NCBI GenBank assembly: GCA_022706765.1
Contig: JAKJBX010000004.1
Coordinates: 62,001 to 126,000 of the forward strand
Direction: 5' to 3'
From: Bacillota bacterium
GTDB lineage: Bacteria > Bacillota > Clostridia > Monoglobales > Firm-18
DNA length: 64,000 bases
The notes under the pieces are model-generated. The model searched no databases and was not told the DNA's origin. It saw nothing but the letters and a program-made list of their open reading frames with translations. The position numbers were made by a program, and so were the translations under genes. Positions 44,119 to 60,686 of the stretch are shown here, one piece after another; the stretch's first letter is position 1, and each line of letters opens with the position of its first letter.

Positions 44119-44322
44119 ATGTGGGAATATGAAAAAATGCTGCAATATCCCATCAACATCAAAAATACCAATCCCCGCCTTGCTAAGGCGATTATCTCGC
44201 AATACGGCGGTCCCGACGGCGAGCTCGGCGCATCGCTGCGCTATCTGTCGCAACGGTTTACGATGCCCAACGACATCGCTCGTGCGACGCTCAACGACAT
44301 CGGTAGTGAGGCATCAAAATGA
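44119..44322 (+). CDS. cotJC: CotJC, 5' part (interrupted by a 19-kb element)
   Basis: The first 61 complete codons of the manganese-catalase-like coat protein CotJC: MWEYEKMLQYPINIKN, QYGGPDGELGASLRYLSQRF (first metal-ligand Glu35), ATLNDIG. Reading then runs into the element and stops at 44320-44322. Codons 1-61 plus GG (44302-44303) join in frame with C at 63397 to rebuild codon 62 (GGC) and give a 194-residue protein, close to the 189 residues of Bacillus CotJC. As it stands this fragment lacks three of the metal-ligand pairs. Confidence 0.93.
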   Translation: MWEYEKMLQYPINIKNTNPRLAKAIISQYGGPDGELGASLRYLSQRFTMPNDIARATLNDIGSEASK

Positions 44323-45908
44323 CGATGGTCGCCGGAAAAGGCTGTAAATCGCCATTTTGCGGGCAATAGGTTGAGGTGGATGTCTACCCGGTTTTCGTCA
44401 TAAACCGTGATTTTGTCAAGGATATGACGGTAGAAAGTGTCGTTCCACTGCTCCCCGAAGACAAGGCTCTTGAGCGCAGACGAGATATCGGACAGCAGTT
44501 TTTCGTGATTCTCCCACAGTACGGTCTGCTTTTTGCAGCTTTCCATTCCCTTGCCGATTATATCCATCTCTTGGTCACACTTTGCGTTCATGGTCTGAAA
44601 ATCCTGTTTGGAGATATCCTTATTCAGATAAAGTTCCAGCAACCGTTGTTTCTTTTCAGAAATTTGTTTGACCTTGTCTTGAAGGTTTTCTGACTTGTCG
44701 GTTTCACCACTTGAATCAATTACCTTTTTGATGATACCCGTTAGGTTGTCAACAGTCTTCTGGGTGTCCATTTGAAGACTTTTCACCACCTCCTGCATCA
44801 TCAGCTTAGCGTCTTCATCATTGAGGGACATACAGGAACAGCCCACTTGATTATCGGCCTTGTCAACATGCGGCGCACCGTTTTTCGCGCCCTCATAGCA
44901 CCGCCACGCCTTATAAATGCTTTCGTCCTTGCGTTTTTTCGTGCGGGATACAAAAGAACATCCGCAGATACCACATTTGATTTTGCCAGAGAAGCAATAA
45001 CGGTTAGAGTGCTTGGTCTTTTGCTCGCCTGAAGGAGAACGGCGGACCAATTCCGCCTGGGCTTTATCAAACATTTCACGGCTGATAATAGGTTCGTGGT
45101 GATCATGGAGGACAACAAATTCTTCTTCGCCCTTGTTATACTTTTTTTCATGAGTCAAGTAGCTGGGCGTGAAGGTTTTTTTCTGGACAAGGTCACCGCA
45201 ATATTTTTCATTGCGCAGTACCCGCAAAATAACCGTATTGGACCATTGTTTCATGTAAGTAGCAGTTTGAATGCCATCCTCACGCAGTTCACGTGCGATA
45301 ACGTGGGTGCCCTTGTCCTCGTTAACAAATTTGTGGAAGATAAGGCGCACAATGTCCGCGCCTTCTTCATTGATATAGAGTTTACCGTCTCGGACATCGT
45401 AACCCAGCATATCCCGGCCAAACACTACGCCTTGTTCCATGCGCCGTTTTTGCCCCCATTTTACACGGTCGGAGGTTTTACGGCTTTCCTCTTGCGCGAT
45501 GGATGACATAATAGTCAACCGCAACTCGGCGTCTGCATCCAGAGTGTTAATATTGTCGTTCATAAAGAAGACGCCAATACCAAGGTCTTTCAGCTTGCGG
45601 GTATAGAAGATACTGTCCAACGTGTTACGGGCAAAACGGCTGATTTCCTTTGTGATAATCAGATCGAAGGTATGTCTTTGGGCGTCTGCCATCATACGGT
45701 TGAAGGCATGGCGTTTTTTGGTGCTGGTGCCAGTGATACCTTCGTCTACATAAACCTCCGTAAGCTCCCAGAAAGGATTGCGCTCTATGTAATCACGAAA
45801 GTATTTTTTCTGGCTTTCCAACGAATTCACCTGATCATCCTTGTCCGTCGATACCCGGCAGTAAGCGGCAACCCGCTGCGGCTTATCGGAATATGGAATC
45901 AAACTCAT
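44241..45908 (-). CDS. Large serine recombinase spanning attL
   Basis: 555 residues. N-terminal resolvase domain with catalytic Ser20 (YCRVSTDKDDQ), then the recombinase domain (GYDVRDGKLYINEEGADIVRLIF), a zinc ribbon (KCGICGCSF...CYEGAKNG...GCSC) and a coiled coil near residues 385-470. GGAGGGC precedes the ATG. The crossover GG (44302-44303) lies inside the gene: its last 19 complete codons are antisense cotJC DNA. In the excised circle the frame would instead continue for 47 codons (PCEVSKWRFLFAGKM...) to a TAA at about 63253. It is the expected integrase/excisionase of the element. Confidence 0.93.
   Translation of the reverse strand: MSLIPYSDKPQRVAAYCRVSTDKDDQVNSLESQKKYFRDYIERNPFWELTEVYVDEGITGTSTKKRHAFNRMMADAQRHTFDLIITKEISRFARNTLDSIFYTRKLKDLGIGVFFMNDNINTLDADAELRLTIMSSIAQEESRKTSDRVKWGQKRRMEQGVVFGRDMLGYDVRDGKLYINEEGADIVRLIFHKFVNEDKGTHVIARELREDGIQTATYMKQWSNTVILRVLRNEKYCGDLVQKKTFTPSYLTHEKKYNKGEEEFVVLHDHHEPIISREMFDKAQAELVRRSPSGEQKTKHSNRYCFSGKIKCGICGCSFVSRTKKRKDESIYKAWRCYEGAKNGAPHVDKADNQVGCSCMSLNDEDAKLMMQEVVKSLQMDTQKTVDNLTGIIKKVIDSSGETDKSENLQDKVKQISEKKQRLLELYLNKDISKQDFQTMNAKCDQEMDIIGKGMESCKKQTVLWENHEKLLSDISSALKSLVFGEQWNDTFYRHILDKITVYDENRVDIHLNLLPAKWRFTAFSGDHRHFDASLPMSLSVARAMSLGIVNRCDR
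44282..44323. other. Left attachment site (attL) of the cotJC element
   Basis: cotJC sequence up to GACATC, the core GG at 44302-44303, then the element arm TAGTGAGGCATCAAAATGAC. The arm is a near-exact inverted copy of the right-end arm (17 of 20 positions). Confidence 0.85.
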
Positions 45909-46001
45909 GCCCTCCTCTCTGATTTAAATTTATCAACCACCTTTATTTTAAGAAATTTATCTTTTCGCGTCTACAAGTGTTGCACTTTTATTTTTGAAAA
46001 G

Positions 46002-46193
46002 TCAATTTTTTATGCTCGGCTTTTGCAGTTCTTCGACACACCGCTCAAACTGCCACTGTGCTAGGAGGCCCCGGTCCAGCAGTGATAAAAGCAGCGCAGT
46101 TTGATAATTTTCTAGGAAAGGTTGTGGACCGGACAACTTATCCGGCTGCTTGTCATCCACCACTTCCATAAGCATAAAACAGTTTTTCGCCAT
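46002..46193 (-). CDS. Small SHOCT-like protein upstream of the recombinase
   Basis: 63 residues; the C-terminal half (TALLLSLLDRGLLAQWQFERCVEEL) resembles the SHOCT helical hairpin found in small mobile-element proteins. AAAGGAGGTCTGTCC precedes the ATG. It lies 93 bases before the serine recombinase on the same strand, so cotranscription is likely. It is a candidate recombination directionality factor by position only; homology to a known factor such as SprB cannot be claimed. Confidence 0.6.
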   Translation of the reverse strand: MAKNCFMLMEVVDDKQPDKLSGPQPFLENYQTALLLSLLDRGLLAQWQFERCVEELQKPSIKN

Positions 46194-46231
46194 TGGACAG
46201 ACCTCCTTTCTCCTGAATTTTGGGCAGAAAA

Positions 46232-46267
46232 AATACCAGACGATTTTTTTCGTCTGGTATTATTTTA
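46232..46267 (-). terminator. Terminator of the restriction-modification operon
   Basis: AATACCAGACGA and TCGTCTGGTATT, a perfect 12-bp stem, followed on the minus strand by TTTTTTCTG. Confidence 0.85.
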
Positions 46268-46403
46268 TGTGGTACTGGTTGTACGGTATGAGAAGAACAA
46301 TTATGGATTATGAGAATTTGAATAGAGCACCTTCCCGATATGTCCCTAATTTAGATAACCTTTCTGTGTTTAAAGCGTCCCTTAACACTAAACGACCCCA
46401 AAG

Positions 46404-46673
46404 TTAGACCGTCTTGATAGCCATTAGGTAAGTGTTTGATATATCTTCCACCTGTTCCCTGGTTCCAAACCTGACAGGAACCTTCTGATTCATCAAGCTT
46501 TCATACCAAACGAGCTTCTTATCCCGAAGCATAGTTTTGGGCAATTTGGGGCAAAGCGAAATCGTATAGCAGCAGTTGTTTGATTTGTCCGGCTTTTCTT
46601 TCAAGTTAAAATATCTCTGTGTATTTTGACTTACTTCACTTATTTTAAAATTGTAAATGACATTTGACTTCAT
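46404..46673 (-). CDS. Small hypothetical protein at the end of the type I RM operon
   Basis: 89 residues (MKSNVIYNFKISEVSQNTQRYF...), no recognised domain, no signal or membrane segment. Its ATG overlaps the hsdM stop by 4 bases and a terminator follows, so it is the last gene of the operon. In E. coli the prr locus carries a tiny Stp-responsive partner elsewhere; nothing in this sequence links it to that role. Confidence 0.6.
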   Translation of the reverse strand: MKSNVIYNFKISEVSQNTQRYFNLKEKPDKSNNCCYTISLCPKLPKTMLRDKKLVWYESLMNQKVPVRFGTREQVEDISNTYLMAIKTV

Positions 46674-48424
46674 GGCAACTCTGATAATCCCAGTTCTTTT
46701 AAAAATTCATTATGCCTAGCTTTTACCTTGCTTATCGTATCCTCAATTTTATCCAGATTATTTTTGACTTCAGCAATATCAATGATTTCTTCTGCTATTG
46801 CCGTACTCACATATCTTGATATGTTCAGATTGAAATTATTCTTTTCGATTTCTTCCATAGATACACGACGCGAATACTTTTTGTCATCTTCTTTTCGATA
46901 TTGATATGTGTCAACTATTTTGTCGATATGCACTGGCAATAGGACGTTTTGACGTTTCCCCTTTTCGTAGTACTCACTTGCGTTGATAAACAACACGTCA
47001 TTAGATTTCTTGCACTTTTTAAGCACGAGAATGCACACCGGAATACCTGTAGAGAAAAACAGATTTGCCGGTAATCCTATTATCGTGTCAATATTACCAT
47101 CTTTGAGCAATTTTGTTCTTATTTTTTCCTCCGCACCACCACGGAACAAAACACCATGAGGCAAAATTATTGCCATAGTGCCTTCGTCACTTAAGAAGTG
47201 GAAACCATGTAGCAAAAAGGCAAAATCGGCAGCCGATTTTGGGGCGAGTCCGTAGCTTTTAAAGCGAAAATCTTCTGCAAGCGTGTCATTTGGCTCCCAA
47301 CGGTAACTGAAAGGTGGATTGGCTACAACTGCGTCGCACTCCAATTTCTTTGCCGGGTTCATCTCACTTAAAATATCCCAGTCATTTAATAGTGAATCTC
47401 CGTGGAATATTTGAAACTCAGAATCTTTGAATCCATGAAGTAGCATGTTCATACGAGCAAGGTTGTAAGTTGTGATGTTCTTTTCTTGTCCATATATCTG
47501 TCCAATACTGTTTGGCTCAAGTTGCTTTTTAACGTTGATAAGGAGTGAACCCGAACCACAAGCAAAGTCCAGCAAATTGTTAATATACTTTTTTTTGCCT
47601 GTACTAGGGTCTTGGCTATCAAGTATAACGATGCGAGAAAGGATGGTTGAAATCTGCTGGGGAGTGTAGAACTCTCCAGCTTTTTTACCTGAGCCCGCCG
47701 CAAATTGACCTATCAAATATTCATAGGCATTTCCTAAAAGATCTATTTCATTTGAAAATTCAGAAAGTCCTTCGGCAATTTCGGTTATAATTGAGCACAG
47801 CGTTTCATTACGAAATTCATATGTTTTACCAAGTTTATCTGAGTCAAGATTTACCTCAGAGAACAACCCTCTGAAAGTGCTATCAAAAGATTCGTTTTCT
47901 ATAAATTTGAAGCCTTTTTGCAGGTTTTTTAAAAGATGTTTATTTTGTGTTCGTGCTAACTCATAAATATTGCTCCATAGATAATGTGGCTTAATTACAA
48001 AATGCACTTTACGGCGCATTTGTTTTTCAAAAGTGACCACTTGGTCTAAATTTTTGATATACCAAACAATAAGAGGTGTTAGCTTTTTGCTTTCAAGCAG
48101 TTCCTCATATTCCTCGATAATTGCCTTCAATGCTTTCTCTTCCAATGCCTGTTTGGAAAAATGCTTAGCTATCTGGTTTTTTAAGCTATTGATAACATCA
48201 TCTTGTTTCTCGTTAGCAACTGCATTTTCTATCTCTTTTTCACACTCTGTATAATCACTGCCAAGCTCTTTTTTTGCGGATTCCTCATAATTGTCGGAGA
48301 GGTAGCGCAGAAAAAGGAAAGATAGCATATAATCACGAAAGTCATCCGCATTCATAGCACCACGTAGTTTATCGGCAATCCCCCACAGGGTTGCCCCTAA
48401 TTGTTTTTGTTGTGTATCATTCAT
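46670..48424 (-). CDS. hsdM: Type I restriction-modification methyltransferase subunit HsdM
   Basis: 584 residues. N-terminal HsdM bundle (LWGIADKLRGAMNADDFRDYMLSFLFLRYL), then the SAM-binding motif DFACGSGSLLINV near residue 283 and catalytic ANPPFSYRW near 368, typical N6-adenine methyltransferase motifs. EFYTPQQISTILSRIV is the usual HsdM linker. Overlaps the PrrC-like gene by 4 bases and lies fourth in the operon hsdR-hsdS-prrC-like-hsdM-orf. Confidence 0.96.
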   Translation of the reverse strand: MNDTQQKQLGATLWGIADKLRGAMNADDFRDYMLSFLFLRYLSDNYEESAKKELGSDYTECEKEIENAVANEKQDDVINSLKNQIAKHFSKQALEEKALKAIIEEYEELLESKKLTPLIVWYIKNLDQVVTFEKQMRRKVHFVIKPHYLWSNIYELARTQNKHLLKNLQKGFKFIENESFDSTFRGLFSEVNLDSDKLGKTYEFRNETLCSIITEIAEGLSEFSNEIDLLGNAYEYLIGQFAAGSGKKAGEFYTPQQISTILSRIVILDSQDPSTGKKKYINNLLDFACGSGSLLINVKKQLEPNSIGQIYGQEKNITTYNLARMNMLLHGFKDSEFQIFHGDSLLNDWDILSEMNPAKKLECDAVVANPPFSYRWEPNDTLAEDFRFKSYGLAPKSAADFAFLLHGFHFLSDEGTMAIILPHGVLFRGGAEEKIRTKLLKDGNIDTIIGLPANLFFSTGIPVCILVLKKCKKSNDVLFINASEYYEKGKRQNVLLPVHIDKIVDTYQYRKEDDKKYSRRVSMEEIEKNNFNLNISRYVSTAIAEEIIDIAEVKNNLDKIEDTISKVKARHNEFLKELGLSELP

Positions 48425-49737
48425 TCCCGACCCTCCTGAACTTGATTATCTTCAAATAGTTTCTTATTGAAATTATAATCATCTAAAAAATTATTTAGTA
48501 TGTTTTTGAAATGTTCTTTATTTTCTTCAACCATTTCTTTGGGATCAAATAAAGAATAATTTCCATGGCTCAAGAGGTTTATTATTCTTGTGTAGATAGG
48601 CTCGTCCTCATCCGCTCCCTTTCTTATACAAGAAGAGAAGTGGGCAAAACCATGAAAAGATGCTGTCTTTTCTATTATATTTCTAAGGACATTAAAGTGA
48701 TACGTATATAATGCCCCTAAATCAGACGCTTTTTTCAACTCCTTTAATAATGCAACATGATGAAAGAAAGGTGTTTTTGTTGTATCTTTAAGTACATACG
48801 TACCACTCGTGGCGTTTTTTTGCAAAAATAATTGTTCGGCATTATTAATTTCATTGCATAAAACATTAAAAAACAATGTATGATGTGATGAAACAATTAC
48901 TTTAACATCGTTACCACTCATTAATTGTGCCAAATGACTTGCAACAGCAATAACATTATTGTCATCTAAAGAAGAAATAGGGTCATCTACATAGATATAC
49001 TTTACCCAGTTATACGATTCTACTTTATCCACAACCAACTGAACAACAGCAAGAAAGAAGCACCAAACAAAGATGTTTTCTTCGCCACGAGATATTTTTA
49101 TATTGTCAACTCTTTGTGTCGCACCTGAAATTAGTACATTTCTAAAAAAGCTAATTGCCGAGTTTTCATAATTGATGAAAAAATCGAAATCGGCATACCT
49201 ATGTAGCAGAGGGCGAATCCTGCTTTCCATTTCAAGCTCTTTTAAGCCTGCAAAAAATCGGGAGCTGCTATTTAACCTTAGTAGACGGTCTGTATCATTT
49301 TCTAAATCATTATCCCAATAAAAGAGGTCTTCAGTAAATGCGTTATAGTATAAAGTATCAGCTGTTTTTTCTCCAGTATCACCAATTAACTGTTGACCTA
49401 ATGATTTAAACTCAACAGAAAGCCTTGTCTTACCTGTACCATTATATGCAAACAGTACAATATATTTCTTTTCATCTAACAGCATTCTGAAATATTCAGC
49501 AGTTTCTTTCAGTGAGTTGAATTGTTTATCTCCTATCCTTTTGAGTATAAAATCTATTTTTGTAAGTACTTCCGTAGATAAACCATCTTTTAAAGTATAT
49601 TCTACCGAGCCCTTCGGCTTTTTATAATTATCGTTAAATATTTTTTTGTATTGCTGAAAATTATCGTTGTTAAGTTTCTTGTTAATTAGCTTATTAAATT
49701 CCTCTTTGGTAAATTTAGATGGAATGTTTATACTCAT
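48421..49737 (-). CDS. PrrC/RloC-like ATPase, putative anticodon nuclease in RM operon
   Basis: 438 residues. An ABC-type ATPase with Walker A AYNGTGKT (97-104), signature-like ISRGEE (215-220) and Walker B YIYVDDPISSLDD (248-259), followed by SSHHTLFF. The C-terminal domain has Arg352-x3-Glu356 (NVLRNIIEKTASF) and His391 (LLSHGNYS), matching the Arg-Glu-His triad and spacing of the PrrC anticodon nuclease (R320, E324, H356). PrrC is held silent by its type I RM complex and cleaves tRNA when a phage inhibits restriction. Location between hsdS and hsdM with 4-bp overlaps on both sides supports that arrangement. Nuclease activity is inferred. Confidence 0.75.
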   Translation of the reverse strand: MSINIPSKFTKEEFNKLINKKLNNDNFQQYKKIFNDNYKKPKGSVEYTLKDGLSTEVLTKIDFILKRIGDKQFNSLKETAEYFRMLLDEKKYIVLFAYNGTGKTRLSVEFKSLGQQLIGDTGEKTADTLYYNAFTEDLFYWDNDLENDTDRLLRLNSSSRFFAGLKELEMESRIRPLLHRYADFDFFINYENSAISFFRNVLISGATQRVDNIKISRGEENIFVWCFFLAVVQLVVDKVESYNWVKYIYVDDPISSLDDNNVIAVASHLAQLMSGNDVKVIVSSHHTLFFNVLCNEINNAEQLFLQKNATSGTYVLKDTTKTPFFHHVALLKELKKASDLGALYTYHFNVLRNIIEKTASFHGFAHFSSCIRKGADEDEPIYTRIINLLSHGNYSLFDPKEMVEENKEHFKNILNNFLDDYNFNKKLFEDNQVQEGRE

Positions 49738-50987
49738 TCTCCCACCTCCTCAATGGAAGGGAACAGCCCTTGCATTAAACCTTTTTTGTGTGCCTGTATC
49801 GCTTCAATTTTTTCTGCTTGTGCATTTAGGAAATATTCCACGTTAGATAAGCAATCCGCTATTTTTTGTTGTTCTTTTTTGCTCGCAGGATAGATTAAAG
49901 GCATATTCATGAAATCCTCGCTCGATATGCTCATACGATCATGCCTTGCACCAGTATTCGAGATATTTTTTAAGTACTGGTGCCAACATGTTGTTTTGAA
50001 AAAATGCGCAAAATAGTCATTGCTTTTGCTTTTAAATCTAAACACTGTGTACAAAGGCGAAATAACACCTTTGCCCATATTATTCCTTGATATAGGACCA
50101 ACTGGAGCTGTTACTGATATTCTTGGATTATATACGTAGTCGCCTTTATCAAGAACATAATAATTAGCGAGATTACTTTGGTTTGCAATATCTTTGTCAA
50201 AAAAATCTTGCTGGTTTACAACTCCATTAACAGCGGAATTTGTAAGCACACGATTTAATCTCTTATCATTGTTTTTTTGTGTTATTTTTACAGCTAAAAA
50301 GTTAAGTGCACTTGTTTTCCAATCTCCACTACCCCTAAACTCCGGAAATCTCCATTCAGGCAGAGTTTCACCCTCAGCGGGAAACAACTTCTGCATTAAA
50401 CCTTTTTTGTGTGCTCTAAGTGCCGACAGCTTTTTATCCTCGGCGGCGATGAGGTCGTCCAGGGAGGATAGGCAGTCGGCTATTTTTTGTTGTTCGTTAT
50501 TATCAGGTTTTGGCATCAATATAGCAGAAAACTGGCTATAGCTTACCATTTTGCCATCTCTAATTCCCTCTAAGTCTTTATTTAAATCTTGGATAAACCT
50601 ATTGGTTTTAAAGTAATGCTTATAATATGGCTCTATGACATCAACTTTTTTTCGCAAGATTATATATGCAGGACTACAAATACCATGAAAGAGAGAGTAT
50701 TCGATGCCACCTTGAAAAGACCTTAAGCTTATAATAAAGTCACCTTTTTCTACAACTTTATAACTTTCAAGGCTTTTATCTGTTACCGACACATTATAAT
50801 CAATCTGATCTCTTGGAATTGCTCCATGTTCCTGCGTTATAGCAAGAACGGGAAGATCTGAATTATGATTTTTATTACTGATTGCTTCAAATATAAAATT
50901 TCCATTTTCAAGATTAATTGCGCCATTGCTTTTAAACTCTGGAAACCTCAACTTCGGCAACACTTTTGTTTTTTCTTTATTATTCAT
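49734..50987 (-). CDS. hsdS: Type I restriction-modification specificity subunit HsdS
   Basis: 417 residues with two target recognition domains, each followed by the conserved helical spacer: EQQKIADCLSSLDDLIAAEDKKLSA...HKKGLMQKLFP near 165-205 and EQQKIADCLSNVEYFLNAQAEKIEA...HKKGLMQGLFP near 370-410. Thus it recognises a bipartite DNA site, sequence unknown. GDYVYNPR and LPEWRFPEFRG are typical TRD starts. Overlaps hsdR by 8 bases and the PrrC-like gene by 4. Confidence 0.95.
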   Translation of the reverse strand: MNNKEKTKVLPKLRFPEFKSNGAINLENGNFIFEAISNKNHNSDLPVLAITQEHGAIPRDQIDYNVSVTDKSLESYKVVEKGDFIISLRSFQGGIEYSLFHGICSPAYIILRKKVDVIEPYYKHYFKTNRFIQDLNKDLEGIRDGKMVSYSQFSAILMPKPDNNEQQKIADCLSSLDDLIAAEDKKLSALRAHKKGLMQKLFPAEGETLPEWRFPEFRGSGDWKTSALNFLAVKITQKNNDKRLNRVLTNSAVNGVVNQQDFFDKDIANQSNLANYYVLDKGDYVYNPRISVTAPVGPISRNNMGKGVISPLYTVFRFKSKSNDYFAHFFKTTCWHQYLKNISNTGARHDRMSISSEDFMNMPLIYPASKKEQQKIADCLSNVEYFLNAQAEKIEAIQAHKKGLMQGLFPSIEEVGE

Positions 50988-53900
50988 ACGCTTTTAACCC
51001 CACAATCTCACGCCCACCTGCTAACTTTTTCAGTAGCGGAATTAAATCCTCCATCAACTCCAGCTCTTTCTTGGTTCTATCTCTCCAGCTAAGGCCAAGG
51101 GGCTCTAATAGGTCACTTAGTTTTTCACCATCAAAAATCATGCGCGCCATTATTTTATCAACAAAGGCTTGCAATGATGCTGGCTCTATACCATGTTTAT
51201 TTGCAATTGCAGCCAGTTCTTTAGCCGATTTTTCTGCCTTAAATTTTTGATAGCCTGCTCTTATGGATTTTTCATCCAATCCCTTTCCGGCTTCCAACGT
51301 ATTGATATATTCTTCTATATCTTCTCGTTCATCCATCAAGTTGGAGGTCGAAGATATAAGGTCGATCAATTCTTTCTTGGTCATTTTTTCTTTTTTAGGC
51401 ACATTAGGCTGTGTGTATTTAGAAATCAGCGACATGATGTAATCATAGTCAATGATAGCAGAGGAAAACAGAACAAACTCAAAATCGAGCTGTTCAACCT
51501 CTGGTGCCTTATCCACAATATCTTTGCCTTGCTGTACCTTTAGCCTTTGAGCAGTCTCGATATATGCTCCACGGAATGCACGCAAAGTATCCTCCGGTAA
51601 CAATTCTTCAATTTTTGCAGCTTGTTCTTCTTTTATATCTGTATATTGGTCAAGCTGCGTTTTAAGGCGTTGCACCTCTTTGAATTTATCAATAAATTCT
51701 GCACGTGCCGTGTCACCCTTCAGATTGCTTACTTCCTCCGGTTTGCACTCCAATCCCTGTGATTGCATAAACTTTTCAAGCTCGGCAACAGCCTTATCCA
51801 GCTTTTTAACCACAACAGGAGCCGGATCAACAAGCCAAATTTCCTTTACTTTCTCGCTATTTTCCTTGCCGGAAAAGAGTGTAATAGCATCATTAACCTC
51901 ATTTTCGTGTCCTCTAAAGTCAATAATGTTACCATATGGCTTCGTGGGGTTCAAAACACGATTTGTTCTTGAAAAAGCCTGAATTAAGCCATGCTGTTTT
52001 AAGTTTTTATCAACATACAGTGTGTTTAGATACTTGGAATCAAAGCCTGTTAACAGCATATCCACAACAATGATTATATCAATCTTGTTTTTGTGTGAAT
52101 AATCCGCATTTGTGTATTGCTGGTCTTTAATACGTTTTTGCACATCTTGATAATATAAGTCAAATTCGTTTATGCTGTGGTTCGTGCCATATTGCCTGTT
52201 GTAATCGTCGACTATAACTTTAAGTGCAGCTTTTTTCTTGTCAGGTTCCTGTTCGTTGTCGGCTTTTTCCTGTGCAAGGTCTTCTTGAAGCTGTTTCACG
52301 TCTTTATTTCCCTCAGCTGGTGGAGAAAAGACGCAAGCAATATTTAGCGGATTAAAGTTTTCATCACCACTATTTTTGAGATCTTCTTGCAAAGTTTTAA
52401 ACAGTTCAAAATATTCGATTGCGTCATTAATCGAAGCAGTTGCGAAGATTGCATTGTATCTTCTGTTATATGTTGCAGCATCATGCTTTGATAAGATTGC
52501 TTCGGCAATTGCTTGTTTATATTCCTTCGAGGATGCTTTTATAGCCACCTTATCATCTTCTGGCTTGAAATAATCAATATGAAAGCGCAGGACATTACCA
52601 TCATCAATTGCATGTGTTATGGTGTAGGCGTGAAGCTCCTTTTGAAAAACATCTTTTGTTGTTCTGTAAGAACCCACGGTGCCATCAATTTGCTTATATG
52701 TTGAGTTTTTTTCAAAAATTGGTGTTCCGGTAAAACCGAAAAGCTGTGCTTTTGGGAAAAATGTCTTTATTGCATCGTGGTTATCACCAAACTGGGAGCG
52801 ATGGCATTCATCAAAAATAATTGCCATTCGCTTATCCCTAAGTTTTTCTAATCTTTCTTTAAAGGTGAGTTCACCTTTTTTCTTTTTCTCTTGGTTACGC
52901 CTGCTATCTTCATCAAGGGCAAGCCCAAGCTTTTGGATGGTGGTAACAATCACCTTGTCTTTGTAGTCGTCAGATGTAAGGCGTCTGACCAAACTTTCGG
53001 TGTTTGTGTTTTCCTCAACGCAGCCCTCTTGGAATTTATTAAATTCTAAGCGTGTTTGCCTATCAAGGTCTTTTCTGTCCACGACAAATAAACACTTTTC
53101 AATTTCGGGATTGTCCTTCAAAAGTGTTGATGTTTTGAAAGAGGTGAGCGTTTTTCCGCTTCCGGTAGTATGCCAAATGTATCCGTTGCCACGATTTTGC
53201 TCAATGCAGTCCATAATTGCCTTAACAGCATAAATCTGATAAGGACGCATAATCATCAATTTTTGTTCGCTTACTACAAGAACCATGTATCGGCTGATTA
53301 ATTGCCCAAGAGTGCATTTAGGTAAAAATCTATTCGAAAAGTCATACAGGTTAGTTATCTTTTTATTTTCTTCATCTGCAAACTCATAGATTGGCAAAAA
53401 TCTTTCGTCGGCATTAAAACAAAAGTGTTCTTTATGGTTGTTTGCAAAATAGTATGTATTTGTTTCGTTGCTCACGATAAAAAGCTGCATAAAGCAAAGA
53501 AGCGAGTTTGTGTATCCATTGCCTTGATCGTTTTTATACTCTACAATTTGCTCCATTGCCTTTTTGGGTGTAATTTGTAGAGTCTTTAACTCAATCTGAA
53601 CAACAGGAACGCCGTTAATGAGGATAATAACATCATAACGGTGGTTGCTGTTATCTGTGTTTATACGCAACTGATTTATCACTTCAAACTCATTTTTACA
53701 CCAGTCTTTGATGTTTACAAGAGTGTATTGCAGGGGTGTGTCATCATCACGCTTAAAAGTATTAATTTCACGTAATGTTTTTGCTGCCGCAAATACATCA
53801 GCAGTTATAATTCCATCTCTAAGACGTGCAAATTCGGAATCGCTTAAATTCACTTTGTTCAAACGCTGAAAATGCGCTCTGAAATTCTTTTCAAGTGAAG

Positions 53901-53988
53901 CTTTATCCCTAATATCATCACGGTATGTATATTTTAAATCCTTAAGCTTACCAATGAAAGAATCTTCTATTTGCTTTTCAGTCTTCAC
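50980..53988 (-). CDS. hsdR: Type I restriction enzyme subunit HsdR
   Basis: 1002 residues. N-terminal nuclease with the PD-ExK-type VPVVQIELKTL (~130), then the superfamily 2 motor: IWHTTGSGKTLTSF (~275), IIFDECHRSQFGD (~390), FGFTGTPIFE, DMLLTGFDSKYLNTLYVDK and LIQAFSRTNRV. The C-terminal helical region (KKLAGGREIVGLKAYE) links to HsdM. The start is GTG with GGAGATTAG before it. First gene of the operon; no obvious frame damage, so restriction may be active. Confidence 0.96.
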   Translation of the reverse strand: MKTEKQIEDSFIGKLKDLKYTYRDDIRDKASLEKNFRAHFQRLNKVNLSDSEFARLRDGIITADVFAAAKTLREINTFKRDDDTPLQYTLVNIKDWCKNEFEVINQLRINTDNSNHRYDVIILINGVPVVQIELKTLQITPKKAMEQIVEYKNDQGNGYTNSLLCFMQLFIVSNETNTYYFANNHKEHFCFNADERFLPIYEFADEENKKITNLYDFSNRFLPKCTLGQLISRYMVLVVSEQKLMIMRPYQIYAVKAIMDCIEQNRGNGYIWHTTGSGKTLTSFKTSTLLKDNPEIEKCLFVVDRKDLDRQTRLEFNKFQEGCVEENTNTESLVRRLTSDDYKDKVIVTTIQKLGLALDEDSRRNQEKKKKGELTFKERLEKLRDKRMAIIFDECHRSQFGDNHDAIKTFFPKAQLFGFTGTPIFEKNSTYKQIDGTVGSYRTTKDVFQKELHAYTITHAIDDGNVLRFHIDYFKPEDDKVAIKASSKEYKQAIAEAILSKHDAATYNRRYNAIFATASINDAIEYFELFKTLQEDLKNSGDENFNPLNIACVFSPPAEGNKDVKQLQEDLAQEKADNEQEPDKKKAALKVIVDDYNRQYGTNHSINEFDLYYQDVQKRIKDQQYTNADYSHKNKIDIIIVVDMLLTGFDSKYLNTLYVDKNLKQHGLIQAFSRTNRVLNPTKPYGNIIDFRGHENEVNDAITLFSGKENSEKVKEIWLVDPAPVVVKKLDKAVAELEKFMQSQGLECKPEEVSNLKGDTARAEFIDKFKEVQRLKTQLDQYTDIKEEQAAKIEELLPEDTLRAFRGAYIETAQRLKVQQGKDIVDKAPEVEQLDFEFVLFSSAIIDYDYIMSLISKYTQPNVPKKEKMTKKELIDLISSTSNLMDEREDIEEYINTLEAGKGLDEKSIRAGYQKFKAEKSAKELAAIANKHGIEPASLQAFVDKIMARMIFDGEKLSDLLEPLGLSWRDRTKKELELMEDLIPLLKKLAGGREIVGLKAYE

Positions 53989-54161
53989 TACTAATCTCCT
54001 CTCACTACTTGATTATCCATTTTATGTGATTACAGATGTCAAAGGCTATTTTTTACGACGATCGTTCCGTGCAGTGTATTCAAGAAGTTTTACACACTAT
54101 AAATTAAAATAGGTGATCGTTCGTTGCCTTCTTAGTTATAATCATTTTACTTATATGATGG

Positions 54162-54443
54162 TCATTCTAGATGCCTCATCATGTTATAATCAAAAATTTC
54201 AAAGCTATCCAATAATTTTTTTGAGTCGTCGTATTGCTGGAATACAAATACAAGAGCCAGATAAGTTGACCATTGCAAAGGTCGACGTTTCGTCTCAATA
54301 AGCATCATGGATTGTCGGGTCACTCCAATTTTCCTTGCTAAATCTTTTTGAGTGATACGAATGGATGCTCTTAATACGGGCAAGTGCCTCGACATTTTTT
54401 CTATATATTCTTCCTGTTTTTGAGTTAATGGTTCCTTTTCCAT
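54162..54443 (-). CDS. XRE-family transcriptional regulator
   Basis: 93 residues with a helix-turn-helix: LRASIRITQKDLARKIGVTRQSMMLIETKRRPLQWSTYLAL. GAGGTGATGCA precedes the ATG at 54443. It lies 170 bases upstream of hsdR on the same strand and may regulate the RM operon in the manner of control proteins, or the element's transfer state (inference). The 53989-54161 interval holds no clear gene. Confidence 0.8.
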   Translation of the reverse strand: MEKEPLTQKQEEYIEKMSRHLPVLRASIRITQKDLARKIGVTRQSMMLIETKRRPLQWSTYLALVFVFQQYDDSKKLLDSFEIFDYNMMRHLE

Positions 54444-54564
54444 TGCATCACCTCGCATTTTGCTATTATATCACATTTGTTGCAAAAAGTAAATCCTCAT
54501 GATAAATTTTTTAGCTTTGAGACATGGACAGCTTTTTAATAGTAATGATGCTCCGTTCCGTTAA

Positions 54565-55104
54565 TCACAGCGCCGTGCCTTTCGCCGGTATGAACAGCCC
54601 GGAGATATCCGCGCCTTCCAGCTCAAGCAGTTGAATTTTTTTGCCGATGCCTCCGGCATAGCCTGTCAGGCTTCCGTTTGAGCCTACTACCCGGTGGCAG
54701 GGAATGATGATGGAGATGGGATTATGCGCCACAGCCCCGCCGACCGCCTGACCCGACATGCTTGGCCTGTTCATTCTGCCCGCAGCCTCTTTTGCGATCT
54801 GGCCATAGGTTGTCACCTTGCCGTAAGGAATCCGGCATAAAATCTCCCATACGGTCTGGCGGAATGGCCCGCCGATGAGGGCTAAGGGAATCTCGGAGAT
54901 TGCGGGCTGCTTGCCCGCGAAATACTTGTCCAGCCATTCCTTTGCGGCGGCGAATATGGGCAGATCATCGTTTTGTGTCATAGTCTCCGGCACGGCACCG
55001 CCGAAGTATTTTTGCCCCTCCAGCCACAGGCCGGCAAGATTTTCGCCATCGCTTCCAAGCGTAATCGGTCCCACAGGTGATAAATAGTGTGTCGAATAAA
55101 CCAT
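54565..55104 (-). CDS. ogt: Methylated-DNA--protein-cysteine methyltransferase (Ogt/Ada-C type)
   Basis: Repairs O6-alkylguanine by transferring the alkyl group to its own cysteine. 179 residues: RIPYGKVTTYGQIAKEAAG (helix-turn-helix), GGAVAHNPISIIIPCHRVVGSNGSLTGYAGG with acceptor Cys in PCHRV. It is cargo of the cotJC element and the first of a GC-richer block that differs in base use from the RM operon. The ATG is 3 bases beyond the stop of the upstream 61-residue gene. Confidence 0.94.
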   Translation of the reverse strand: MVYSTHYLSPVGPITLGSDGENLAGLWLEGQKYFGGAVPETMTQNDDLPIFAAAKEWLDKYFAGKQPAISEIPLALIGGPFRQTVWEILCRIPYGKVTTYGQIAKEAAGRMNRPSMSGQAVGGAVAHNPISIIIPCHRVVGSNGSLTGYAGGIGKKIQLLELEGADISGLFIPAKGTAL

Positions 55105-55107
55105 ATC

Positions 55108-55293
55108 TTAATCTCCTTGCAATGCGGTTGTGATCAATGACGCCGATATACGGAGCGCTTTGACCCTGTTTTTGAGCAGCGTCCACTGAGGGGTGCCCTG
55201 CGTTAGCTTTTCCTGCGCTTTTTCGCACTTGCCGATCAGTGAAGTGATGGCCCGAAGCGCCTCCGTTAAGTCTTCTTTTGAGAAATAATCCAT
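55108..55293 (-). CDS. Small helical protein coupled to ogt
   Basis: 61 residues (MDYFSKEDLTEALRAITSLIGKCEKAQEKL...), predicted helical, no known domain. GGGAGGTTTTT precedes the ATG. Coupled to ogt by a 3-base gap and to the DUF2461 gene upstream by 21 bases. Function unknown. Confidence 0.7.
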   Translation of the reverse strand: MDYFSKEDLTEALRAITSLIGKCEKAQEKLTQGTPQWTLLKNRVKALRISASLITTALQGD

Positions 55294-55314
55294 AAAAACC
55301 TCCCGATATTTGTT

Positions 55315-56001
55315 TTATCCGATTTGCGGATCGGGGTTGGCATCCAATGTAACAAAATAGTCGTATAACGGCATCAGGAATGCAAAACCGCCCGCAAGGC
55401 GGTCAGCCAATTCAGGCGAAAAGAGCTCCATACCATTGGGTTGAGTATGGATTAATGAAAAGGATTTTTTATTGTACCATTCCGCTGTCTTAGGGGTGGG
55501 CGCTGTCTTTTTTCTTACATATTCGAGGCCTTCCAGAACAAATTCCTCTTGCTTTTCAAGAGGCGCAATGAGTCTTTCAAATTGCTTCGGCGCTTTGTCA
55601 ATACGCGCCCGGAGCTTTGCCATGGTGAGCGGCTTTGCCTGATAATAACCCAGGCCGTAGCTCCAGCTTTCAGGCTCCAACTCAAACCAGAATACGGGGG
55701 TAGATGTCCACTCCTCGCTGGGCCGTTCAATGGAAAACCACAGATGATCCCTGTACGGGCCGTCGCCGCGCAGGCGTCTGGCGTCCTTGTAAATGCGCGC
55801 AATCTTGTGAATAAAACCGCGGTCGCCGTATTGACCGGTAACCCGTTCAAACACCTCCTGCCCTAACTCCTTCATGGGATACAAAAAATCGCGCCGGTAC
55901 TCGTCTTTGTGTTCTTCAAACCAAGCTTTCCGGTTATTAAAGCGGAGGTTCCACATAAAGTCAATGGTGCGGGGGGAAAACCCCTCAAACATGTTCATCA
56001 C
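55315..56001 (-). CDS. DUF2461 family protein
   Basis: 228 residues: FSPRTIDFMWNLRFNNRKAWFEEHKDEYRRDFLYP, RIYKDARRLRGDGPYRDHLWFSIER and FWFELEPESWSYGLGYYQAKP are the DUF2461 hallmarks. Cytoplasmic, no known activity. Overlaps the end of the DUF1697 gene by 17 bases. Two adjacent ATGs can serve as start. Confidence 0.88.
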   Translation of the reverse strand: MMNMFEGFSPRTIDFMWNLRFNNRKAWFEEHKDEYRRDFLYPMKELGQEVFERVTGQYGDRGFIHKIARIYKDARRLRGDGPYRDHLWFSIERPSEEWTSTPVFWFELEPESWSYGLGYYQAKPLTMAKLRARIDKAPKQFERLIAPLEKQEEFVLEGLEYVRKKTAPTPKTAEWYNKKSFSLIHTQPNGMELFSPELADRLAGGFAFLMPLYDYFVTLDANPDPQIG

Positions 56002-56554
56002 CCTTATCTTTCATCATATCGTACAATTGATTGACTGTTTTCCAGTTGCGCGCCGTAGCCGAACCAAATACCTTTGCAATGCGGGCCGCGAGCTTTGACT
56101 TGCGTATGCTCTGCCGACAAAGGAGATACAGCTCTCTTTTTCCTGTCCGCAGGATATCTTTGCCGGCACACTCCGTGCATATTGCGTCGATCTGCATCTG
56201 TTCCGGCGTATGATCTAAAAAATAAATGTAAAGATGCTCAACCTGCGGATCAGCGGCTTGGGCTGCCGTTATCTCATTCGCTGTGAACGGGAGCCGATCA
56301 ATCAAAAGCCGCATTTCGTCTTCGCTCCGTATCAATACGTCACTTTCAAAACCAAAGCGGTCAATAAAACCGGTTCTGATTGTCTCGTGCAAAACGGCTT
56401 CGTCAAGCGCGGTTTCGAAAACAGCATTGCCGCTTTGAATATAGGTCTTTACCTTGCCAAGACCCAAATCATGAAGCAATTGTTTTAAATCGTCCATCCT
56501 GACGATGTTTTTCCCGCCGACATTAATCCCTTTCAAAAGCACGGCATATCTCAT
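55985..56554 (-). CDS. DUF1697 family protein
   Basis: 189 residues: MRYAVLLKGINVGGKNIVRMDDLKQLLHDLGLGKVKTYIQSGNAVF is the DUF1697 signature; the C-terminal ARNWKTVNQLYDM is also typical. Unknown function. AGGAGAAGGCTT precedes the ATG. Nineteen bases after the nitroreductase gene, same operon direction. Confidence 0.9.
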   Translation of the reverse strand: MRYAVLLKGINVGGKNIVRMDDLKQLLHDLGLGKVKTYIQSGNAVFETALDEAVLHETIRTGFIDRFGFESDVLIRSEDEMRLLIDRLPFTANEITAAQAADPQVEHLYIYFLDHTPEQMQIDAICTECAGKDILRTGKRELYLLCRQSIRKSKLAARIAKVFGSATARNWKTVNQLYDMMKDKGDEHV

Positions 56555-56573
56555 AAGCCTTCTCCTGTTCCCA

Positions 56574-57137
56574 TCATCCTATGAACGAAATTTTATTCTT
56601 GTCGGGCTCATGGGGCGGCTTGGTGGTGTTTGCGTATCCCAACAATACCGAACAACCAAAGGCATAGCCGTCAGGGAAGCCCAACCGCTTACTGAATTCT
56701 TCCGCACGGAGACCGCTGGCGAACGCCAGACCGGTAAATCCGCACATAATGTTGGCGATTCCCAGCGAGGTTGCGGCCAGCGTGATATTCTGGCATAGGA
56801 TACCGCAGTCAATCAACGCGGGGCCGTATTGTGTCGGATCAATCGGGACGACAATCATACAGGGCGCGCCGTAGAACAGCCTGCCGCCGCGCTCCATAAT
56901 CCTGTTGTAAGAGGACTTGTCCTCCATACCCGCAAGATAAGACATTCCTTCCGCTTCCATCTCCCGCATCAGCGTTTGGTCTTTTACAACGATCACCCGC
57001 CATGCCTGACGGTTCATCCCGCTGGGCGCCTGTATGGCGGCTTCGGCGATTGCCTGAAGGATTTCATCGGATGGCATCTCGCTTTTAAAATCACGGCAGG
57101 AATACCGCTCTGCGATTACGTTTAACGTTTCGTTCAT
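56574..57137 (-). CDS. Nitroreductase family protein
   Basis: An FMN-dependent oxidoreductase of 187 residues. NVIAERYSCRDFKSEMPSDEILQAI and IQAPSGMNRQAWRVIVVKD are the FMN-binding N-terminal motifs; LAATSLGIANIMCGF and LGYANTTKPPHEPDKNKI close the domain. Substrate unknown. AAAGGAGCAG precedes the ATG. Follows a second, longer nitroreductase-like gene. Confidence 0.9.
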   Translation of the reverse strand: MNETLNVIAERYSCRDFKSEMPSDEILQAIAEAAIQAPSGMNRQAWRVIVVKDQTLMREMEAEGMSYLAGMEDKSSYNRIMERGGRLFYGAPCMIVVPIDPTQYGPALIDCGILCQNITLAATSLGIANIMCGFTGLAFASGLRAEEFSKRLGFPDGYAFGCSVLLGYANTTKPPHEPDKNKISFIG

Positions 57138-57159
57138 GTTATCTGCTCCTTTGCTTCTC

Positions 57160-57852
57160 TCATTCGTAAATCATTTCAATTTCAAAATCCTTGCCGGACG
57201 TTTTGGGCGTGATGGATTTGACTTCCTTACCTTCGTTTTCAAGAGCGGTAACGATGTGGCGCGTTATAATGCCCATATCGATTTTACTCATTTTCGATTT
57301 CAACAGCATTTGCGTAAGGCCCCTTCCGAAATAGCGCACGGTGACGCAGCCGTCCCCGAAAAACAGCTTCCAGGGCTGGGAGTTGCACGCAGACGGAGCC
57401 AGACGCGCCGCCTGTGCCAGATGATTGTCTTTATTGCTGATTTCACTTATGGACAGGCGGTTAAATTCCTTTTCGCTTGTTCTGAAGGGCACAGTGCTTT
57501 GCCCAAAGGCAAGCATAATGCAAAAGCCGGACTCTTTTTCCTTCTGCTTCCCGAACCCAAGCCATAAACCGCCAAGTCCTAAACTTTGAATATATAGATC
57601 CGCCTTTTCCAATACATACCCCACATTGGCATATGCAGCGTCGCCGGGCGGGCAGAAGCTCATAATATAATGCGGCGCGGAAGCGCCCTTTACCTTGTCC
57701 GCCGAAACAATGTCAAACCGCGCGTTTTGTCCCTGCAACTGTCTGGTATTTGTGATAAACGCGCGAATGTCATTCAGCGTTTTTTCGTCCAGCGGCGTTC
57801 TATCGTATTTTCTCACTGAGCGTCTTTTGAAAATGATTTCATACAGTGTCAT
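57160..57852 (-). CDS. Nitroreductase-like protein
   Basis: 230 residues; N-terminal FKRRSVRKYDRTPLDEKTLNDI and central LAPSACNSQPWKLFF resemble the TM1586-type nitroreductase fold, in which two half-domains are fused. The ATG at 57852 has AAGGAGGTC upstream; an upstream ATG 19 codons earlier has none. It begins a run of five genes reading leftward to ogt. Confidence 0.85.
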   Translation of the reverse strand: MTLYEIIFKRRSVRKYDRTPLDEKTLNDIRAFITNTRQLQGQNARFDIVSADKVKGASAPHYIMSFCPPGDAAYANVGYVLEKADLYIQSLGLGGLWLGFGKQKEKESGFCIMLAFGQSTVPFRTSEKEFNRLSISEISNKDNHLAQAARLAPSACNSQPWKLFFGDGCVTVRYFGRGLTQMLLKSKMSKIDMGIITRHIVTALENEGKEVKSITPKTSGKDFEIEMIYE

Positions 57853-57901
57853 AGAATGACCTCCTTGCATTAGATGGAAACTACCCTTAACATAGTGGCA
57901 T

Positions 57902-58984
57902 TTAATCATTTATGAACTCATACAACGAATTTCTCAGAACATTCCTATAATCACCATTCTGGTTTGATTTTTTCTGAATATCATATAAATACGAAAATCC
58001 GTTGCTTTTTGCATTCTGAGCTTGGTCATATTTATGTTGTTTATAAAGTGAATACGCCCCTGTTGTCATAATACCTAAATTTAGTAACGATATTGTAGTA
58101 GAGTTCATGTTTGAAATACGGTTCGCTACTTCTACGCTTGCTGAAAAAAACAAATTAGAGGCACCTGTCCATTTTACAATTTTAAGCATGTCCATGCTTT
58201 TCTTATACTCCGTTAATCCATTTTGGATTTCATTCTTTATATCATTTAATCTATCATCATATACCTCGGTCAATTCATATTCAGATAGTTTTTTAGCAGC
58301 AGAATTCATTATGTCCATAAAATTTTGTCTCTCATCTTTCCTCGTTCGCCTGAAATCAAGAATTTGTTGAGGACTAAAATCTAAAATATTAGCTGGTATA
58401 AAATCCCTAATGAGTAAATCCATAATGACATGATTGTGATATGGGGAGCATTCATCATCAAATGGTTCTTTATGAATATTAAAGTATGTATATCCAGCCC
58501 AAGCGATAGAGTTGTCTGTTACAACAGACATTTTATTTTCAATTGCCATAACGTTTGCTAAATAAATCATGTATAAAGCTACAAAATCTTCGGGAAGGTC
58601 TTCAAACCATTCGCTATCAGATTTTCCAAATCCTTGGTTTATAAGCATGTTTCTAACTTGATAATCTATCTTTTCTCGATGCAAGCGAGCTGTATTACTA
58701 TTATACTTTCTTTTTGTATCAAGTGCGGCGGCACTCCACTTTTGTGTTTTCAAATTTTCAATGAATAACTTGGCCGTATTTTTCGTATATTTTTTTGGTG
58801 AAAGGTGAATCCCAATTTCTCCATCAGAAATTAATTCTTGAATATTTCGGCATTCATGAAGTTTAACTCCATCTGGTACAATTCTATAAATTCTATCCCA
58901 CAAAAGAGCTGCTGCCCACAACCATTCGTAATCTTCAAATTGGATTGTTGGATAATAAAGCACATAGTTTTGACTAAAATTCAT
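57902..58984 (-). CDS. DUF6236-like protein of unknown function
   Basis: 360 residues, AT-rich, probably soluble: NYVLYYPTIQFEDYEWLWAAALLWDRIYRIVP is the DUF6236-type N terminus, followed by a long helical region with LPEDFVALYMIYLANVMA; a late hydrophobic patch STTISLLNLGIMTTGAYSLY may be a membrane helix. GGAGGTTTG precedes the ATG at 58984. Such genes are often found in mobile or defence loci, but no activity is known. Confidence 0.65.
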   Translation of the reverse strand: MNFSQNYVLYYPTIQFEDYEWLWAAALLWDRIYRIVPDGVKLHECRNIQELISDGEIGIHLSPKKYTKNTAKLFIENLKTQKWSAAALDTKRKYNSNTARLHREKIDYQVRNMLINQGFGKSDSEWFEDLPEDFVALYMIYLANVMAIENKMSVVTDNSIAWAGYTYFNIHKEPFDDECSPYHNHVIMDLLIRDFIPANILDFSPQQILDFRRTRKDERQNFMDIMNSAAKKLSEYELTEVYDDRLNDIKNEIQNGLTEYKKSMDMLKIVKWTGASNLFFSASVEVANRISNMNSTTISLLNLGIMTTGAYSLYKQHKYDQAQNAKSNGFSYLYDIQKKSNQNGDYRNVLRNSLYEFIND

Positions 58985-59104
58985 TATACAAACCTCCATT
59001 CCTGTTAACAAATTCACATTATAGCCATTATCATCACTTCTACGAACTTTGCATTATATAAATAATCTGAAACTCTATTAAAAATATAAACTACGACGGT
59101 CTAT

Positions 59105-60397
59105 TCAGCGTAGCATTTCAATAGCATACAATGGTAAATTCAGCAGCCATTCCTCACGCTTGTAATCCGACATGGATGTGCGGACGGACATCTCCGGCTG
59201 AAACTTTTCGTAATAGGTTTTAAGGCTTTTTGCCTTTAAATTTGTTTCGGCCTTTACCTCAATGGGAATAACGTTACTGCCGTTATCCACAACAAAGTCA
59301 ATTTCCGAGCCGCCGCGGTCATTTGTCCAGTAATAGGTTTCCAGTTCTTTGACCGTTTTCAATTGCTGCAAAACATATTGCTCGGTCAGCGCACCCTTAA
59401 ATTCCTTGAAAAGTGCATTGCCGTCTAAAAGTGTGCTTTGTTTCAGGCGTACCATACAGGAAAGCAGGCCGACGTCAAGCAAAAACAATTTAAAGGATTT
59501 TAAATCCTCATAGGCTTTGAGCGGCAGTCTCGGGCTATTTACCCGGTGAACCTTGTGGATAAGGCCGCAATCGGTCAGCCAGAGCATAGCCTGTTCGTAT
59601 TCCTTCGCGCGCGCACCCTCTTTAATTAGCCCGTAAATAAATTTCTTGTTCTCCTTAGTAAGCTGGGCGGGAATACTGTTCCAGAGCATTCGGATTCGCG
59701 GAACAACGTCGTGGGGCGCATGCTTGGAAAAATCCTGCTCGTAAGCGTCAAGCATGCGCTGCTGTATATTCCGCACCTCGGTAAAATCTTTATTCTCGGA
59801 AAAACTATAGACGGCTTCCGGCATACCGCCCACATAATAGTAATATTTGAGCATGTCTATATAGGTTTGTTTAAAGGTCGTTGCCATTTCAAAATCATTC
59901 TTTTGCAAAACCTCTACATACTGTGCGTTGCCCATTGCGGTAAGAAACTCCGTAAAGCTCAAAGGGTACAAATCCAAAAACTCTACCTTGCCCACCGGAA
60001 AGGAAGTGCCTTGGTGTAAGGCAACCCCTAAAAGCGAACCGGCACACACGATCTGATATTCAGGCGCGTTTTCGTTAAAGTATTTCAGGGAAGTTAGCGC
60101 TTTAGGCACCTCCTGAATTTCATCGAAGACCAGCAGGGTATCGGCAGGATTGATCTTTTGACCGGAATAGAGCTCCAAACCGATGATAATACGCTGTACA
60201 TCCAAATCAGAGGAAAACAGTTCCGTCATATGCTGGTTATTGTCAAAGCTGATATATACGGTTTTATTGAAGGCAACCCGGCCAAATTCCTTCATAAGCC
60301 AGGTCTTGCCGACCTGCCTTGCGCCACGGATAATGAGCGGTTTTTTATTCTGCCTTGCCTTCCATTTATGCAGTTCTTCTATTGCTGTTCTATACAT
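59105..60397 (-). CDS. ATP-binding protein, AAA_14 plus DUF4143
   Basis: 430 residues. AAA_14 domain with Walker A IIRGARQVGKTWLMKEFG and Walker B TLLVFDEIQEVPKALTSLKYF, then SLLGVALHQGTSFPVGKVEFLDLYPLSFTEFL, and a C-terminal DUF4143 with a PD-(D/E)xK-like core GSEIDFVVDNGSNVIPIEVKAETN. A widespread family in anaerobes, often on mobile DNA, of unknown role. AGGTGATGTACC precedes the ATG. Monocistronic. Confidence 0.9.
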   Translation of the reverse strand: MYRTAIEELHKWKARQNKKPLIIRGARQVGKTWLMKEFGRVAFNKTVYISFDNNQHMTELFSSDLDVQRIIIGLELYSGQKINPADTLLVFDEIQEVPKALTSLKYFNENAPEYQIVCAGSLLGVALHQGTSFPVGKVEFLDLYPLSFTEFLTAMGNAQYVEVLQKNDFEMATTFKQTYIDMLKYYYYVGGMPEAVYSFSENKDFTEVRNIQQRMLDAYEQDFSKHAPHDVVPRIRMLWNSIPAQLTKENKKFIYGLIKEGARAKEYEQAMLWLTDCGLIHKVHRVNSPRLPLKAYEDLKSFKLFLLDVGLLSCMVRLKQSTLLDGNALFKEFKGALTEQYVLQQLKTVKELETYYWTNDRGGSEIDFVVDNGSNVIPIEVKAETNLKAKSLKTYYEKFQPEMSVRTSMSDYKREEWLLNLPLYAIEMLR

Positions 60398-60431
60398 GGT
60401 ACATCACCTCGCAATATAAGTATACCCCACT

Positions 60432-60686
60432 TTAACAAAAAATGCAACGAAATTCAGATATTTTATTACACTTTTTACGTTGAATACTGATTGTAAGGTG
60501 ATCGCAAATATTTTTAATGCCGGATTCCAGCTTGGAAATGTACCGGCGTTTTTCATCACGACTCAATGCCTTTTCCTTGTGGTCCATTCCAAGGACATAA
60601 TAAAACGGTGGTAGGGCAGCAGGCAAGTAAAAACCACGAATGATACGACATTTTTCACACAGATGGCTTATCAGGATACTGTTCAA
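60432..60686 (-). CDS. Doubtful small frame, possible gene remnant
   Basis: 84 residues (MNSILISHLCEKCR...LGMDHKEKALSRDEKRRYISKLESG...), overlapping the end of the neighbouring gene by 32 bases. The SRDEKRRYISKLE stretch looks protein-like, but there is no good ribosome binding site or recognised family. It may be the end of a disrupted mobile-element gene. Confidence 0.25.
   Translation of the reverse strand: MNSILISHLCEKCRIIRGFYLPAALPPFYYVLGMDHKEKALSRDEKRRYISKLESGIKNICDHLTISIQRKKCNKISEFRCIFC

Follow-up and report, generated by a model that had tools for sequence, protein, structure and literature searches.

What becomes of a recombinase gene when the attachment site of its own mobile element lies inside it? 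The question is raised by a locus in the 64,000-nucleotide stretch of DNA analysed here (the window), where a 19,093-bp mobile element (one core copy counted) splits cotJC at codon 62 on the core GG. We consider it highly probable that attP is located within the large serine recombinase (LSR) gene of this element, which would give a full-length enzyme with a C-terminal extension in the circle and a truncated, excising form when integrated.

The element in cotJC and its recombinase gene

The element and the gene that it interrupts comprise the following features.

44302..63394, no strand: whole element; its removal restores cotJC and its joined ends give a palindromic attP
44119..44301, plus strand: cotJC 5' part, residues 1-61, joining in frame to 63395 for a 194-aa CotJC
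63395..63796, plus strand: cotJC 3' part, residues 62-194 (translation, joined frame)
44302..44303, no strand: attL core GG (CC in the recombinase sense)
63395..63396, no strand: attR core GG

When the flanks are joined, cotJC reads ...LNDIG/TEELGHLE... in a frame of 194 aa; its 5' part matches itself at 98% and other cotJC halves at 49-74%. GG are the only bases common to the left and right junctions, and the core is identical in every element found. The joined attP is strongly palindromic around it, CATTTTGATA CCTCAC AA-GG-TA GTGAGG C ATCAAAATG, and a 2-bp core with a symmetric attP, as in the sites of LSRs, is present in the window and in relatives. The interrupted gene is a sporulation gene whose frame is restorable by precise excision, and the same site is used in many genomes. 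No match to the Spo0A C-terminal domain was found in the window's genome (82% complete), though cotJ genes are present there; this reflects either a gap in the assembly or a reduced sporulation pathway, so that the sporulation context is only putative for this host.

The LSR gene (int) occupies 45908..44241 on the minus strand and encodes 555 aa in the integrated state. Its parts are distributed over both ends of the element.

44301..45908, minus strand: LSR body, residues 1-535, plus the core-spanning codon (Pfam; dN/dS against a Pelotomaculum homologue)
44241..44303, minus strand: integrated-state 3' end, with the core-spanning Pro codon, 19 antisense cotJC codons and the stop TGA (translation)
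63253..63394, minus strand: detached 3' end, coding for a tail of 47 residues that is read in the circle alone; the L007 and G048 elements have homologous sequence at their other ends

Element DNA supplies codons 1-535. The codon after them lies across the core, and the 19 codons that follow, together with the stop, are antisense cotJC; these last 19 codons read MSLSVARAMSLGIVNRCDR. Across the joined ends, the circle reads PCEVSKWRFLFAGKMADRRGLVLCGDEADKPVPKGGRMYDVRVVINL, that is 47 codons up to a stop at 63253-63255, for a total of 582 aa. An earlier note on this DNA had placed the recombinase stop at 44241 within cotJC, after 19 antisense codons, which translation confirmed to the base; it had also described a 47-codon circular reading with a stop near 63253 and proteins of 555 and 582 residues, and every one of these numbers proved correct on the joined ends. 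The Resolvase, Recombinase and Zn-ribbon domains (Pfam PF00239, PF07508, PF13408) all score above cut-off, and the LSR body has a dN/dS of about 0.07 relative to the Pelotomaculum homologue.

The length of the open frame is in itself weak evidence. A frame may cross attP by chance if nothing is needed past the zinc-ribbon/coiled-coil domain and either tail is tolerated, and the frame of the window indeed stays open equally long in 7% of dinucleotide shuffles (P = 0.07); the corresponding P is 0.02-0.08 in most relatives and 0.2 in L007. The significance of the reading consequently rests on conservation in relatives.

The remaining annotated genes of the element are listed below, and a search of the Rfam models gave no match across the element.

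62938..63198, minus strand: DUF6870 gene, the first after the tail in the circle (Pfam E=3e-20)
61309..62925, minus strand: second, different LSR with one in-frame TAA (Pfam; frame-0 translation DDFCR*TSVKVRNVLDMK)
46670..53988, minus strand: cargo genes for type I restriction-modification hsdM, an AAA_13 ATPase, hsdS and hsdR (Pfam)

The DUF6870 gene is preceded by a good ribosome-binding site, AGGAGG. The second LSR, at the right end of the element, is unrelated to the first and is broken by that single TAA.

Relatives in the same cotJC codon and the circular tail

Relatives were searched for in more than 800 genomes of Clostridia and related bacteria, and about 30 were found besides that of a Pelotomaculum genome (L007), which carries a 79%-identical recombinase at the same cotJC codon. 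Across Clostridia, LSRs sharing 47-79% identity sit in this codon, and the insertion point is nearly always identical, after the Asp-Ile codons and the GG of the next codon. In most relatives (type A), the 3' end of int faces the antisense 5' half of cotJC, and in the others (type B) int adjoins the 3' half in sense. Read in the sense of int, the core is CC in type A (G127) and GG in type B (G827, G831), the element being reversed on the same attB; this is a natural case of the central dinucleotide determining orientation. An uninterrupted cotJC with the predicted attB was found at L066. Over the stretches examined, most cotJC halves are free of in-frame stops. The gene is often found in three pieces, with a second break near codon 34 (G048, G365, G074, G399, G286, G181, G823, G827 and others), so that two elements would occupy a single 194-codon gene.

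Most of these genomes are drafts, and most elements were reconstructed from ends on separate contigs; the pairing of ends therefore rests on site identity, with the contiguous cases as a safeguard. The full-length gene was also sought in circular phage and viral genomes: two scans of viral contigs yielded no relatives, and an alignment scan returned only LSRs of at most 54% identity, the three closest of which (L108-L110) lie near cotJC pieces. The phage record MT839280.1 and the Pusillibacter faecalis plasmid pMM59_01 were considered as circular forms and rejected, both being integrated in cotJC and reading through the core. The element of P. faecalis MM59 (NZ_AP023421.1, ~241.4-271.3 kb; L189) measures 29.9 kb, lies in cotJC and carries mobC, repA, parB and restriction-modification genes.

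Element ends were joined wherever both could be found. The best-sampled clade, that of G127, provided eight tails, seven of them reconstructed (G127, G258, G027, G015, G851, G827, G831) and one contiguous (G820). Joining the ends adds 54-56 conserved residues past the core, always in the recombinase frame (G127 YLHRVPNAPLNENALKLAEIQVFERCLKYGTSPDYTRKKKAEEPEMILNIKLAA; G851 YLHRANNAPLDKNAINLAEIPVFERCFKYGTSPDYIPKKVKETPEMIVSVKLYA; G827 SVHQSSNATVDKYNIKLAETVVVERFKKYGTQTEGDTRKINKGDEIEVGIKLYT). With leave-one-out HMMs, the tails score 42-92 bits versus at most 11.6 bits for shuffles (500 each). Pairwise dN/dS of the tail is below 1 wherever computable in this clade, and differences by codon position amount to 574/420/718, second positions varying least. 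In the reversed type B elements G827 and G831, the tail is found at the opposite side of cotJC and still in frame with int, which argues that it belongs to int and not to the host side. The integrated tails are unconserved host DNA, with stops +10 to +178 nt past the core. Since the circular tail is conserved and the integrated one accidental, the circular form would bear the 'real' C terminus.

Comparison of the joined ends shows, at the level of sequence, that attP lies in the gene, that the state of the DNA sets the C terminus, and that one clade at least conserves the circular tail. The earlier note's proposal of a state-dependent C terminus is thus supported, the circular tail being conserved in relatives and the integrated tail being unconserved host antisense. 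Its statement that excision 'swaps' the C terminus holds as to the change of tail, but 'clips' is the better word, as a conserved extension is lost and accidental host sequence stands in its place. That the C terminus is 'simply tolerated', as it also suggested, is unlikely for the best-sampled clade, in which the circular tail is conserved at the protein level. The biased direction and the stability switch that it raised may be roles of the tail.

We also considered whether the conserved far-end segment could be a small gene in its own right, for instance for a recombination directionality factor (RDF), rather than part of the recombinase. Its location at the element end beside a repA-like gene or DUF6870 would suit such a gene, as would the point that the segment would otherwise be unexpressed in the integrated state. 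This is nevertheless very improbable: whichever way the element is oriented, the segment continues the int frame past the core; it follows int upon reversal and forms a contiguous fused frame with it in G820 and G343. A separate ORF was rejected because no start codon is conserved and the frame is always that of int.

G820 contains two elements in tandem on one contig, where the int body crosses the att site into the tail of its neighbour (...LAEISVFERCCKYGTSLQQSNTRTNEQSEKTVGINLYA). The junction thus presents, in one contig, the int body, att, the tail and a gene whose product begins MQFDYFYGNESEQFTFYRI and is taken, from its sequence, for a RepA-type initiator. The array, which places two cotJC elements one behind the other in a single host, extends over ~18.5-77.3 kb of contig C34, and its inner element measures about 57 kb. 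In G343, int is uninterrupted and its tail resembles the one reconstructed for the G151 circle; about 100 nt between this int and cotJC resemble the int 3' end, so that the locus is apparently a collapsed tandem. Both are natural full-length genes for which no reconstruction is needed. Far ends in which the circle would read the int tail and then a RepA-type replication gene were observed in G027, G015, G851 and G827 (L045, L047, L091, L088), and in G827 parA/parB-like genes, named from their sequence, follow the int tail in the circle. With such genes behind the tail, circularisation would join int to plasmid functions.

The trait is scattered on the recombinase tree, where its bearers do not form a single clade, so that it may have arisen once or several times. 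For the tail of the window, supporting relatives are two only, L007 and G048, both of which are broken there and have constrained recombinase bodies. Aligned over 21 codons with the L007 far end (EADKPVPKGGRMYDVRVVINL / EADKPVPKGGRIYDVSVLINV), the window tail shows 11 differences, distributed 2/0/9 over the codon positions (9/11 third-position, binomial p=0.0014), with a dN/dS of 0.11. The G048 far end matches the window tail with E=0.003 and 4e-4. In L007 a 7-nt difference puts the tail out of frame, whereas G048 has TGA in place of a Trp codon and its int terminates on the core. Homology between the window tail and that of the G127 clade was rejected (HMM score -2.2, no better than 45% of shuffles); both end in a hydrophobic, strand-like stretch, and the likeness goes no further.

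About a dozen relatives, including G042, G286, G399, G053 and G058, end before or at the core, and others (G386, G823, P. faecalis) read through it into circular tails that are unconserved. Together with the two broken tails, the relatives that end early suggest that the tail is dispensable in some lineages. The expectation that homologues would end like the circular form is accordingly borne out in the best-sampled clade and fails elsewhere, several homologues stopping before or at the core and two close relatives being broken. These same relatives favour the view that the frame crosses attP by chance, with nothing needed beyond the zinc-ribbon/coiled-coil domain. We regard that view as unlikely overall, given how strongly the G127 clade conserves the tail as protein, the frame kept in both element orientations and the codon-position bias in the window/L007 tail; it keeps some weight because about a dozen relatives are tail-less.

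The integrated form and possible roles of the extension

An AlphaFold2 model of the integrated form, of moderate quality (pLDDT 74, pTM 0.35), contains the helices 404-428 and 434-466, in line with the zinc ribbon and coiled coil of LSRs. The last predicted strand is at 518-523, where the fold ends, and residues 524-555 are disordered (pLDDT < 50). Canonical domains are complete in those relatives whose recombinase stops short of the core or close to it, and these align with full-length forms over all canonical LSR regions, the tail lying beyond. A tail that forms a canonical part of the LSR fold was hence excluded in favour of an extension. The integrated gene should thus yield an LSR that is whole but for a C-terminal extension, and with all canonical domains retained this product would be expected to be active, judging from the Pfam domains, the model and the alignments.

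The sequence and its comparison with relatives show the first half of the cycle that we propose. The att site of the cotJC-targeting element sits in the 3' part of its own LSR gene, so that in the excised circle the gene is whole and encodes a recombinase with a C-terminal extension. Integration carries the last part of the gene off to the opposite end of the element, leaving an integrated copy that is truncated and accidentally capped by antisense cotJC. The truncated enzyme, with all canonical LSR domains, would most likely excise the element together with an RDF when cotJC is needed, while the extension would be needed in the circle only, where its most likely task would be to promote integration or to license it, and would decay once the element stops moving.

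As to what the extension does, the favoured possibility, still a tentative one, is jointly that attP x attB synapsis depends on the tail or that the tail restrains excision. A directionality switch, in which attP x attB recombination needs the tail or the tail inhibits attL x attR excision, without or besides an RDF, may be put forward with the same reserve. Under such a switch, the full-length form would exist only when integration is useful and the truncated form only when excision is useful, and the loss of the tail from small elements that keep the body would be in line with it; tail-less relatives occupying the same site argue against it. These small elements, L007 (4.5 kb), G048 (4.9 kb) and G823 (4.1 kb), carry little besides int, whose body is intact with low dN in all three; G823 is without a conserved tail. 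This is the pattern expected if the body is still used for an excision that restores cotJC and the tail matters only to elements that go through the circular state. The stricter proposal that the state of the DNA itself chooses the form, full-length for integration and truncated for excision, as a built-in directionality acting with or instead of an RDF, appears slightly less probable again.

The tail may otherwise be a stability switch, the circular form bearing a C-terminal degron and the integrated enzyme being the stable one. The G127 tail ends LAA and several others LYA or LTA, and there is a precedent in the repressor of phage BPs, which escapes an ssrA-like tag when shortened by integration (PMC4557955). 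Conservation spans the whole ~45 residues, however, well beyond the last three, and other tails end INL (window), DGN (G258), IPV (G151) or LYT (G827). With ends this varied, an ssrA-like degron is unlikely to be a general feature of the tail, and we find a stability switch improbable, somewhat more so than a chance read-through.

Comparison with known systems

How serine integrases choose direction is a central question, both for their biology and for their application as genome tools. In the present case it is seemingly the reaction product itself that selects between two versions of one enzyme, and the comparison singles out a defined stretch of about 50 residues at the C terminus, open to deletion and assay. 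Catalogues of LSRs compiled from integrated copies may contain clipped proteins, the true C terminus of which is encoded at the opposite end of the element.

Several intervening elements of sporulation genes are known, namely skin (sigK), SP-beta (spsM), gin (gerE) and yin (yabG) (PMC5595907, PMC5025042, PMC10747680). Like them, the present element encodes an LSR and sits in a sporulation gene that precise excision can restore; unlike them, its target is cotJC. Excision in the mother cell, under the control of an RDF, is a further mark of this class. In the open-access literature, we found no report of a state-dependent recombinase C terminus in these four elements, of cotJC as the target of an intervening element, or of a serine recombinase whose gene is split by attP. 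The recombinase of skin-Cd, CD1231, integrates alone and excises with the RDF CD1234, and like other LSRs it has a C-terminal extension of variable length (PMC5025042). The LSR of the window shares this domain order and the variable extension, which is the very region clipped here; unlike in CD1231, for which PMC5025042 reports nothing of the kind, the extension is encoded across attP.

Two systems come nearest, the BPs repressor in its truncated form and the suicidal tyrosine integrases of archaea. In the integration-dependent immunity of mycobacteriophage BPs, the repressor measures 136 residues before integration and 103 after it, and the part removed carries an ssrA-like degron (PMC4557955). 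There too attP lies inside an ORF, integration shortens the C terminus and the state of the DNA changes the protein; unlike in BPs, the clipped gene is that of the recombinase and not of a repressor, and what is lost is a conserved tail of 47-56 residues whose varied ends speak against a general degron. Suicidal (SSV-type) integrases, as in SSV1, pTN3 and pT26-2, have attP in the gene and were described in a 2021 review as exclusive to Archaea; the split removes their N-terminal part, and several truncated forms are inactive in vitro (PMC8371274). As in the window, attP lies within the gene, integration parts the gene to both ends of the element and the circle restores it. Unlike these tyrosine recombinases, the enzyme of the window has the domains of a bacterial serine recombinase and loses a C-terminal extension only, its catalytic and DNA-binding domains staying together. 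The design of an attP within the integrase gene, described so far as confined to the tyrosine integrases of archaea, would with the present case gain a bacterial example, and one among the serine recombinases, an unrelated family.
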